Shown: piece after piece, positions 18,141 through 21,183 of the stretch
Position numbering within the stretch: the stretch's first letter is position 1
How the letters are laid out: each line of letters begins with the position of its first letter
Assembly (NCBI RefSeq): GCF_009728145.1
Contig: NZ_WOCA01000001.1
Coordinates: 372,001-436,000 of the forward strand
From: Ornithinibacillus caprae
Lineage (GTDB): Bacteria; Bacillota; Bacilli; Bacillales; Amphibacillaceae
Direction of reading: 5' to 3'
Length of the DNA stretch: 64,000 nucleotides
The notes under the pieces: generated by a model
What the model saw: the letters and a program-made list of their open reading frames with translations, nothing else
Told to the model about the DNA's origin: nothing
Database searches by the model: none
Made by a program: the position numbers and the translations under genes

Positions 18141-19025
18141 GTGGAAGTAAAACTAAACGATTATATTTCATCCAAACAAAGTAGGGTAGAAGAGGAGATT
18201 AAGACGTACTTCGATAAGTTGGAAGTTCCACAAAAGCTAAAGGAATCCATGATCTATTCCATGGAGGCTGGTGGCAAAAGACTAAGACCAATCTTATTGA
18301 TGGCTAGTTATGAAGCTTATGGAGATGACGTATCTAAAGCCTTATCTTCTGCAATAGCATTGGAAATGATACATACCTACTCTTTAATTCACGACGATCT
18401 TCCCGCAATGGATGACGACACCTATCGCAGAGGGAAGTTAACTAATCATAAAGCTTTTGATGAGGCTACGGCAATTTTAGCTGGAGATGCGTTACTCACT
18501 TATAGCTTTGAAATTATTTCCAATGACCCCTTGCTAAGTGATTCGGAAAAAGTAGAAGTCATTAAGAAGCTTTCCAAAAGTAGTGGTCCTAAAGGGATGG
18601 TAGCAGGCCAAATATTAGATATGGATGCTGAAGATCGTGCGGTTACTTTAGAGGAATTGGAAACTATACATGATTTAAAAACAGGAGAATTATTAAAGTT
18701 TGCTATCACGACAGGTGCTTTCTTAGGTAATGCAACCAAAAAACAATTAACTGCTTTAGAGGAATTTTCTTATTATCTTGGTCTTATCTTCCAAGTTCAA
18801 GATGATATCTTAGATGTAATTGGTGATGAGAATAAAATAGGGAAAGCGGTAGGAAGTGATGAAAACAACCTAAAAAGCACGTACCCTAAGCTTTTAGGCT
18901 TAGATGGAGCAATAAGTAGAAAAGATGAATATGTTAATCGTGCAAAAGAAGCATTAGCTAAGGCTGATGCAGATATATCAGTTTTAAGTGCATTAACTGA
19001 TTATTTTAGCCAACGAGATCACTAG
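18141..19025 (+). CDS. ispA: geranyl/farnesyl diphosphate synthase
   Basis: A 294-residue short-chain prenyltransferase making farnesyl diphosphate for undecaprenyl, quinone and heme side chains. The first Asp-rich motif is DDLPAMDDD (85-93), with GGKRLRP before it; the second is QDDILD near residue 224. It starts at GTG 18141 after an AGGGGG ribosome binding site and two bases after xseB. In B. subtilis dxs follows; here OLE RNA and oapA follow instead. Confidence 0.95.
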   Translation: MEVKLNDYISSKQSRVEEEIKTYFDKLEVPQKLKESMIYSMEAGGKRLRPILLMASYEAYGDDVSKALSSAIALEMIHTYSLIHDDLPAMDDDTYRRGKLTNHKAFDEATAILAGDALLTYSFEIISNDPLLSDSEKVEVIKKLSKSSGPKGMVAGQILDMDAEDRAVTLEELETIHDLKTGELLKFAITTGAFLGNATKKQLTALEEFSYYLGLIFQVQDDILDVIGDENKIGKAVGSDENNLKSTYPKLLGLDGAISRKDEYVNRAKEALAKADADISVLSALTDYFSQRDH

Positions 19026-19050
19026 TCTACATGCTTTTTTATCTAAAATG

Positions 19051-19059
19051 TGTTATAAT
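19051..19059 (+). promoter_or_regulatory. extended -10 promoter of OLE RNA
   Basis: TGTTATAAT is an extended -10 (TGn then TATAAT at 19054-19059), 9 bases before the closing stem of OLE RNA. No convincing -35 element is seen at 17 bases. It would let the RNA be made independently of the upstream nusB-ispA operon, although read-through is also possible because no terminator separates them. Confidence 0.55.
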
Positions 19060-19067
19060 AAAGTCAA

Positions 19068-19670
19068 AAGGAATGGTGCAGTATTCTAGTCAGTCCTCCG
19101 TTCCTGAAGGCGGGCCTAAAAATCCGCCAAAGGGCACATCGATGAAGTTCCTTGTGTTGGCTTGAGGCGCCCAGCCTTGGGTCGATGCTGGGAGTTAAGG
19201 TTTTTGGGCGATCCACAAAGGCATGTGGGCGTTGACCCGATTACCGCGGAGGCCCATCTCTGTAGTGGTTGCTAAGCCTAGGAACTATTATGGAATGGGG
19301 TATGAACCTGCATGAAGTGGTTAGGGACACCTAACGTGCAGCGTAGCCTGCCTTGAGTGGTATTCGAGGGGATTAGAGGCAATAATAGTCTTTCTAGGTG
19401 GCCACTAGATTTTCTATTACATTTCTATGAAATCGGTACTGCAAAAGAGGCTAGGGAATGGTTAAAGACTGCTGAGGAAATCTCCTAGACTGTTCAATGG
19501 ACAATTAAATGGGATTATAGTGTGGACTAAGTGGTAATCCAGTCTAGTATTCGGCGACGAAGCTAAGGTGGGTTTAAAGGGGAACCGCCCTCGTGGCAAC
19601 ACGGGGTACTCACTTGGGAAAACCTACTGGACCTAAGCCACAGTTTTTACCATTTAATTGACCATTCCTT
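19068..19670 (+). ncRNA. ole: OLE RNA (ornate large extremophilic RNA)
   Basis: A roughly 600-base, GC-richer non-coding region between ispA and a gene for an OapA-like protein. Size, position and partner gene are those known for OLE RNA, a large structured RNA that forms a membrane ribonucleoprotein in extremophilic Firmicutes. A perfect 10-bp closing helix joins AAGGAATGGT (19068-19077) to ACCATTCCTT (19661-19670). Many smaller hairpins lie inside, for example GGCGGGCC...GGTTTTTGGGC regions and CTCGTGGCAACACGGGG. The region has no convincing reading frame. Exact ends were set by the closing helix. Confidence 0.9.
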
Positions 19671-19723
19671 CTTACATAATACTATGTATAATTAGTAATA
19701 ATATAAACTTAATGGAGTTAAGA

Positions 19724-20323
19724 ATGAAATCACAAATAAAAGGTTCGATAAAATTTAGTTTAACGATTGCCGTTATCACTTTTGTGTTAGCGGCTATTTT
19801 TTCAGTTGTATCATCCTCCTTATTAAATCAAGTAATGTGGTTAATAGGGTTGTTTATAGTTTTACTTATTGTTTTTATAGGTGTATTTTTTGATATGCTT
19901 GGAATTGCTGCAACCGCCGCAGATGAGGTGCCATTTCATGCAATGGCTGCTGAAAAAGTTCCAGGTGCCAAAGAAGCTGTCTATATTATTCGTAATGCCG
20001 ACAAATTTGCCAGTTTTTGTAATGATGTAATAGGTGATATATCGGGAATTGTTAGTGGAACAGCTTCTGCAATTGTAGTATTACAAATAGCAAACTTGAT
20101 GGGACAAGGTGATGGATCTTCTATTCATATTACGTTAAGTGTTGTATTGACTAGCTTAGTTGCAGCATTAACCGTAGGTGGAAAAGCTGTCGGTAAATTT
20201 TTGGCAATTCATTCTTCAACAACTATTATCTTCTTCGTAGCTAAAGTAATTGCGTTTATTGAAGAGAATTTAAAAATAAAAATACTTTCATTTGCCAATA
20301 ATGGTGATAATAAAAAAAGATAG
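19724..20323 (+). CDS. oapA: OLE-associated membrane protein OapA
   Basis: A 199-residue integral membrane protein immediately downstream of OLE RNA. Hydrophobic segments lie at about 11-33, 37-58, 103-125, 137-158 and 165-190. A DVIGD motif (Asp101, Asp105) fits the conserved DXXXD of OapA proteins, which is important for OLE function in Halalkalibacterium halodurans. In that species the OLE RNP is linked to tolerance of cold, ethanol and magnesium. I chose the ATG at 19724 with a GGAG site 7 bases upstream over a frame starting inside the OLE closing stem. Confidence 0.88.
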   Translation: MKSQIKGSIKFSLTIAVITFVLAAIFSVVSSSLLNQVMWLIGLFIVLLIVFIGVFFDMLGIAATAADEVPFHAMAAEKVPGAKEAVYIIRNADKFASFCNDVIGDISGIVSGTASAIVVLQIANLMGQGDGSSIHITLSVVLTSLVAALTVGGKAVGKFLAIHSSTTIIFFVAKVIAFIEENLKIKILSFANNGDNKKR

Positions 20324-20355
20324 TTAATTCTAATCTTACAAAGGATATTAATACT

Positions 20356-21183
20356 ATGGGTAAAAAACGGTTGGATGTTTTATTAGTAGAAAGAGAATTA
20401 ATTGAAACAAGAGAAAAAGCTAAAAGAGTTGTTATGGCTGGACTTGTTTATTCAGAACAGACTAGGTTAGATAAGCCTGGAATGAAGATAGATGAAGATA
20501 TTCCACTCACTGTAAAAGGGAATTTAATTCCTTATGTAGGTAGAGGTGGACTTAAGCTTGAAAAGGCTTTACAACACTTCCCTATTGAAGTGGAGAATAA
20601 GATAATGGTAGATGTTGGATCATCGACAGGTGGTTTTACTGACTGCGCATTACAGAATGGTGCGAAACAATGCTATGCTATCGATGTTGGTTATAATCAA
20701 TTGGATTGGAAATTACGAAATGATCCGCGTGTAATTGTGATGGAACGTACAAACTTTCGTTATGTAACCAAGGATATGCTAACAAAGGGACTTCCAAATT
20801 TTGCAACGATTGATGTCTCGTTTATCTCTTTAAAATTAATCTTACCAGTGCTAAAACAATTACTTGTAGTTGATAGTGATGTCATAGCATTAATTAAACC
20901 ACAATTTGAGGCTGGAAGAGACCAAGTAGGTAAAAAAGGAATTGTAAGGGATAAAAAAGTACATCGAGAAGTACTAGAAACCATTATTAGCTTTGCTTTT
21001 CAGGAAGGTTTTGAATTGTATGGATTGACATTTTCACCGATTACAGGTGGCGAAGGTAATGTTGAATTTTTAGCTTATTTTGGTTGGAGAAAAGAAAAAG
21101 AAGGAATTTCGATGTCCGATGTCGAAATAGACCTAGTAGTCGAAGAAGCTCATCGTACATTAAAATCACCTGAGAAAAAATGA
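20356..21183 (+). CDS. yqxC: TlyA family rRNA methyltransferase (YqxC)
   Basis: A 275-residue protein with an N-terminal S4 RNA-binding domain (about 3-62) and an FtsJ-type Rossmann methyltransferase domain with the SAM motif [15 protein letters not shown] (about 96-110) and later [10 protein letters not shown] and ALIKPQFE. TlyA-family members methylate rRNA 2'-hydroxyls; the exact target here is inferred. It sits before argR and recN as in B. subtilis. An AAAGGA site precedes the ATG. Confidence 0.92.

Follow-up and report, generated by a model that had tools for sequence, protein, structure and literature searches.

The window (the whole 64-kb stretch of DNA analysed here) carries an ordinary full-length member of the known OLE RNA class, which forms a regular pair with oapA. 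We consider it very likely that this locus is a working OLE RNA gene with oapA, whose products would act with OapB and OapC as a Dxs-independent membrane stress ribonucleoprotein (RNP) with a role overlapping that of MpfA. The OLE class itself is already well known, and the locus adds context rather than a new class. Gene neighbourhood has served as a guide to the function of OLE. The value of the locus lies in two natural experiments, namely OLE kept without Dxs, and OLE-free congeners with extra MpfA-type genes.

OLE RNA gene and its protein partners

The features of the locus are as follows (positions in the window).
18141–19025, + strand: ispA (polyprenyl synthetase), upstream neighbour; PF00348, 6.7e-58
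19031–19059, + strand: probable OLE promoter; −35 ATGCTT at 19031–19036, TG at 19051–19052, −10 TATAAT at 19054–19059
19057–19681, + strand: OLE RNA gene, full-length type; RF01071
19068–19077, + strand: closing helix, 5' strand; perfect complement of 19661–19670
19661–19670, + strand: closing helix, 3' strand; perfect complement of 19068–19077
19724–20323, + strand: oapA, encoding a putative membrane protein of 199 amino acids; ATG start at 19724 (probable), ribosome-binding site GGAG at 19714–19717
20024–20038, + strand: DXXXD motif of OapA (DVIGD, residues 101–105), read in the sequence
20324–20355, + strand: oapA–tlyA junction, dxs absent; elsewhere in the family, 42 OLE loci have dxs at this site
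20356–21183, + strand: tlyA, downstream neighbour; TIGR00478, 6.6e-95

The search with Rfam 15 matched 19057–19681 on the + strand to RF01071 (OLE) over model positions 1–616 of 616, with a score of 515.8 bits (cut-off 50) and an E-value of 2.2e-148. This was the sole match at the gathering threshold in the whole 64 kb, and the same search over the genome found a single OLE copy. The first-pass annotation had proposed an OLE RNA of about 600 bases at this place and comparison with the Rfam model; the score, more than 460 bits above the cut-off across the whole model, bears out the identity, and the size was correct. Standard pairs occupy 146 of the 156 model pairs and the remaining 10 are non-standard. 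Judged by RF01071 alone, the RNA belongs to the full-length class and not to variants 1 and 2, in which P7–P9 and P13 are shortened or absent, as the entire model aligns and large gaps are absent. Other full-length copies of the family score 479–548 bits.

The ORF listing begins oapA at TTG 19658 (19658–20323), within the RNA. ATG 19724 is the likelier start because relatives align from 19724 and GGAG at 19714–19717 precedes it. The gene is intact and encodes the expected DXXXD motif, as had been claimed for a partner gene beside the RNA; the motif is present in all 109 oapA rows examined (of 111). Strongly hydrophobic stretches lie at about residues 5–67 and 102–179. Comparison with relatives, also proposed by the annotation, covered the 110 remaining OLE genomes of the family: in 109 of them the best OapA piece is 63–83% identical to that of the window, the exception being a broken copy (genome G079). 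In the Pfam search, OapA matched CNNM weakly (25.1 bits, below the cut-off of 28.4) and neither CBS nor CorC domains were found in it, in agreement with the remote relationship between OapA and CNNM proteins described in the accessible part of PMC11332333.

Candidates for the other two protein partners are located elsewhere in the genome. The OapB candidate is encoded immediately upstream of infA, and its match to the solved OapB 7k9b has an E-value of 8.8e-32. The OapC candidate is of the YbxF type (about 1e-18 to YbxF structures) and sits between an RNA-polymerase-like ORF and a downstream S12-like ORF. Library searches covered ispA, oapA and tlyA as well as the candidates for OapB and OapC, and infA was assigned by a family model. 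We take the flanking ORFs to be map, rpoC, rpsL, xseA, xseB, argR, recN, spoIVB and spo0A.

Closing helix and covariation

The 10-bp closing helix that had been claimed to define the RNA ends is real and exact: 19068–19077 is the exact reverse complement of 19661–19670. The Rfam structure line shows these ends as unpaired. The structure tested was accordingly the Rfam model with the closing helix of the window added, giving 156 + 10 = 166 pairs, in an alignment of 110 of the 111 OLE sequences of the family (the truncated OLE of G079 was omitted). The closing helix was standard in 93.7% of the cells. Its inner eight pairs (19070–19077) are kept across the 110 sequences, each being unpaired in at most one, while the two outer pairs hold in just 65 and 88. 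Six of the ten pairs, including four of the inner eight, show changes on both sides of the pair.

Over the whole structure, 90.8% of the cells were paired compared with 82.5% after shuffling, and both-side changes occurred in 103 of the 166 pairs. The covariation score was 0.284, against 0.127 for shuffled and 0.067–0.086 for slid versions. None of the 500 shuffles, which keep relatedness in, reached the observed pairing or covariation values. The poorly paired stems, helices 8, 9 and 13–15 (21–62%) and helices 4 and 16 (78% and 84%), are variable, and the sequences are only loosely aligned there. Because the Rfam structure was derived from homologous sequences, the covariation test confirms the structure and does not discover it. 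The closing helix makes the OLE RNA a self-contained unit.

Promoter and transcript

The probable promoter has a perfect extended −10 element and a degenerate −35 element, ATGCTT, with the first T missing. Transcription is predicted from these elements to start at approximately 19066, just ahead of the closing helix. The promoter is absent from the list produced by a general promoter scan of this region of the window.

Conservation of the promoter was counted in 109 of the 111 OLE genomes; G029 (clipped contig end) and G079 (mutated anchor) were omitted. A −10-like hexamer was present 8–20 nt before the TGGT of the conserved OLE start in 105 of the 109, compared with 25.4 in letter shuffles. 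When the best hexamer was chosen with a bonus for TGn, TGn together with A2 and T6 was found in all 109, located 14–20 nt before TGGT (at 16 nt in 53 genomes). For this TGn −10, 6.5 were expected in block shuffles; of nine shifted windows, one gave 53 and the other eight gave 0–8. The −35 element, which was not used in picking, had T in 105 and G in 102 of the 109. The extended −10 combined with both −35 letters occurred in 99 genomes compared with 0.4 after shuffling and 0–4 across the nine shifted windows. Among the named loci, many of them from the same or close species, a recognisable start was found in 52 of 59, and 50 of these 52 have TGn with at least four of the six −10 letters.

According to the accessible part of PMC9723947, ole of H. 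halodurans has its own promoter though it lies inside an operon, and its RNA is abundant and about 630 nt long. The promoter before OLE thus represents conservation of a known feature. By analogy with this RNA, and given the conserved promoter, a discrete OLE RNA is likely made here. Terminator-like sites were not found at 18900–20500. A separate oapA promoter in the 3' end of OLE (TTGACC/TACTAT, 19658–19685) is not claimed, because −10-like hexamers after the helix have no fixed position in 102 genomes.

Distribution of OLE and independence from Dxs

OLE was detected in 111 of the 159 genomes of the family, in a search with stricter Infernal filters, which lose some weak matches. OapA was found in the same 111 (in G079 as a relic only), which agrees with the published near-perfect pairing of OLE and OapA. 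Of the 46 genera of the family, 41 have OLE at this same position. In G079 (L203:1501–1894 and downstream), OLE is cut to 394 nt and 133.8 bits, having lost most of its 3' domain, and stops interrupt oapA, leaving a relic of the pair; this genome has three CorC-type matches. In another genome (G109, locus L182), OLE is intact (508.6 bits) while oapA and dxs seem shortened or frame-shifted; this is a single-contig genome and the shortening could be a sequencing error.

The typical cluster has dxs directly after oapA. This feature is absent at the window locus, where tlyA follows, which leaves the OLE membership untouched because dxs is often, not always, adjacent to ole-oapA (PMC10898510, accessible part). 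The best TIGR00204 match in the window's genome reached 85.6 bits compared with a cut-off of 465.95, so that the search found no full Dxs; no Dxr match was reported in this genome, and HMG-CoA reductase is present. In the family, dxs is present in 54 of the 159 genomes, 53 of which pass the cut-off; G022 was counted with two pieces that are each below it. Both OLE and dxs are found in 42 genomes, OLE only in 69, dxs only in 12 and neither in 36.

The accessible text of PMC10898510 offers Dxs beside ole-oapA as a hint of OLE function, and that of PMC12265935 lists isoprenoid biosynthesis among the processes linked to OLE. The proposal that OLE serves isoprenoid synthesis via Dxs (MEP pathway) gains from the arrangement of the genes, as dxs lies downstream of OLE and oapA on the same strand in all 42 genomes with both and ispA lies upstream of oapA in all 111 OLE regions. 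Against it, 69 of the 111 OLE genomes have no dxs, and the ispA–OLE–oapA–tlyA order is in place in all 69 (with OLE and oapA broken in G079). HMG-CoA reductase is present in each of the 105 dxs-less genomes (110 of 159 overall; the other five carry dxs), and none of the 105 has a strong Dxr match; the strong matches, in 52 genomes, are all in genomes with dxs, and weak matches of 21–25 bits occur in six dxs-less genomes. The presence of OLE and that of dxs are not associated (42/12 versus 69/36; Fisher p 0.145, relatedness not corrected). We therefore regard this proposal as very unlikely. OLE persists where Dxs is gone and is thus seemingly independent of the Dxs pathway, and we infer that OLE does not act by way of Dxs. 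A link between OLE and isoprenoids via IspA is possible. Dxs and the MEP pathway are weakened as a guide to OLE function. Joint mention of OLE RNA and mevalonate was not found in the literature searched, which was mostly without subscription papers.

On a quick tree of OLE loci (IspA, OapA and TlyA; 109 of 111 loci, G079 and G123 omitted; unrooted, with some weak forks), the state of dxs changed at least four times. Two small groups and one large clade are without dxs, and one genome with dxs (G017) is placed inside the large clade. Divergent dxs genes are kept without a Dxr match in G017 (L177) and at G001:C1:1454450–1456183; that of G017 is still between oapA and tlyA, and in these two genomes dxs perhaps serves thiamine or pyridoxal synthesis. 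The distance from OLE to the best dxs match is 636–842 nt, except in G123, where it is 2111 nt and a second dxs-like match is nearer; the two matches are side by side after oapA (L102, G123:C7:424048–427219).

OLE-free congeners and MpfA-type transporters

The genus of the window contains ole-oapA in three of 11 genomes. In the eight others, the tlyA match starts 26–32 nt past the end of the ispA match, and no OLE remnants were found in these ispA–tlyA loci at E <= 1. The OLE-free genomes form one clade with support of 100/99 on an IspA + TlyA tree of 30 rows, so that one change suffices; the genus itself has the lower support of 90/96. The 19 outgroups of this tree were chosen by hand and are all OLE genomes, so that outside the genus the tree weighs OLE genomes only. 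Loss of ole-oapA in the OLE-free clade is a simpler reading than gain, mainly because 41 of the 46 genera have OLE at this position. The cassette is dispensable in this lineage, as eight of the 11 genomes live without it.

This absence, together with the poor −35 box in the window and the decayed locus known from another genus (G079), would fit a relic on its way out that has lost its function in this lineage. The sequence of the locus makes this very improbable, since its OLE is full length with a score among those of the other full-length copies and OapA is intact with DXXXD, whereas real decay, as in G079, leaves 394 nt, 133.8 bits and an oapA broken by stops.

Anticorrelation between OLE and MpfA (CNNM-CBS-CorC) has been published. 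MpfA is described as probably able to substitute for OLE RNPs in function (PMC11332333 and PMC12265935, accessible parts). In the family, the mean number of PF03471 matches is 1.48 in the 111 OLE genomes compared with 2.71 in the 48 others (Mann–Whitney p 1.8e-11, without correction for relatedness); 39 of the 111 OLE genomes have at least two CorC-type matches. The 28 PF03471 proteins of the genus include one group common to all 11 genomes. A second group is present in eight of the eight OLE-free genomes and a third in seven of the eight, and both are absent from the three OLE genomes. Two singletons, 44% alike, come from one OLE genome and one OLE-free genome. The three-domain CNNM-CBS-CorC make-up was found in one member per group and in both singletons. 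The window's genome keeps one such gene (G000:C37). The contrast inside the genus is one evolutionary event on the tree. The MpfA difference was not significant in a mixed genus (g25; seven with OLE versus 21 without, p 0.088), and p was 1.0 in two small mixed genera (1 versus 1 and 5 versus 2). A genus whose OLE-bearing and OLE-free species differ in MpfA-type transporters is natural material in which Mg2+ tolerance could be directly compared.

Second OapA genes without adjacent OLE

Seven OLE genomes contain a second OapA gene (six of the eight in genus g38 and one of the 17 in g15). Five are intact, have DXXXD and are 44–47% identical to the OapA of the window, and two are broken.
L247:2924–3520: intact OapA paralogue
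L248:2661–3227: intact OapA paralogue
L249:3031–3573: intact OapA paralogue
L250:3014–3607: intact OapA paralogue
L251:2988–3530: intact OapA paralogue
L252 and L253: broken OapA paralogues

No OLE was found beside the seven at E <= 1 within about 2.6–3 kb. They form one clade apart from the 125 other OapA rows (SH-aLRT 100, with a long-branch warning) on a tree that included 16 of the 59 named OapA rows and omitted G079 and G109. The accessible text of PMC11332333 applies the word paralogue only to MpfA and YlxQ. T-box leaders occur near an OapA paralogue at L249:1282–1956, L247:2022–2275 and L252:4539–4796, and group II intron pieces are near a paralogue in one genome.

None of these additional OapA genes is preceded by OLE, and therefore oapA does not require an OLE leader. 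That the structured region is a mere cis-acting leader of oapA mRNA and not a free RNA would suit its position immediately ahead of oapA at all OLE loci examined and the lack of a terminator-like site found between the two, but we judge it most improbable in view of the five intact and two broken second genes, the self-contained unit given by the closing helix, and the report of the class in H. halodurans as an abundant RNA of about 630 nt with its own promoter (PMC9723947, accessible part).

Proposed mechanism

The best supported view of OLE is that of a membrane RNP as studied in H. halodurans, and by analogy OLE may function here as it does in other species. An OLE RNA of about 610 nt with a terminal helix would be transcribed, probably from a sigma-A promoter of its own that has an extended −10 element, and its 3' end would probably be produced by processing ahead of oapA. 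Two OLE RNAs would fold jointly and keep OapA in the membrane, and OapB and OapC would probably bind the RNA as further partners. A dimer of OLE RNA has been seen by cryo-EM (PMC12286853, accessible part), and a membrane-spanning stem has been proposed in the accessible part of PMC12265935, which also deals with membrane location and OapA binding. The particle would contribute to tolerance of Mg2+, cold, alcohol and poor-carbon stress. This role may overlap with that of the CNNM-CBS-CorC (MpfA) metal transporters, and the particle would be independent of the neighbouring isoprenoid enzyme Dxs. In this explanation, the present analysis supplies the identity of the locus, its partner genes, the helix, the synteny, the survival of OLE where Dxs is missing and the differing MpfA-type gene sets with and without OLE in one genus; for the discrete RNA, 3' processing, dimer, membrane location and stress role we draw on publications on other species.

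A broader reading, which in our estimate has an even chance of being right, is that the OLE RNP is a self-contained, isoprenoid-independent module that is swapped in evolution with CNNM-CBS-CorC transporters. The genus would hold one such swap, seen as the seamless absence of ole-oapA and the two extra transporter groups, and, as a separate point, OapA encoded away from OLE may either use the single OLE RNA in trans or work with no RNA.

Comparison with known systems

The locus is similar to the OLE RNP of Halalkalibacterium halodurans in its full-length OLE recognised by the covariance model, the adjacent oapA with DXXXD, the OapB and OapC genes, the promoter before OLE and the argR-like gene in the cluster. 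The downstream order is presumably shared too, as we take tlyA, argR, recN, spoIVB and spo0A to lie downstream in H. halodurans as well. In contrast to H. halodurans, the window locus has no dxs between oapA and tlyA, and neither Dxs nor Dxr was found in the genome. Another difference is the CNNM-CBS-CorC gene of the window's genome (G000:C37), as mpfA is absent from H. halodurans according to the accessible part of PMC11332333. OapA resembles the MpfA/CorB family (CNNM-CBS-CorC_HlyC) in that it matches the CNNM domain weakly (25.1 bits); unlike MpfA and CorB, it is without CBS or CorC, carries DXXXD and, as published, needs an RNA partner.
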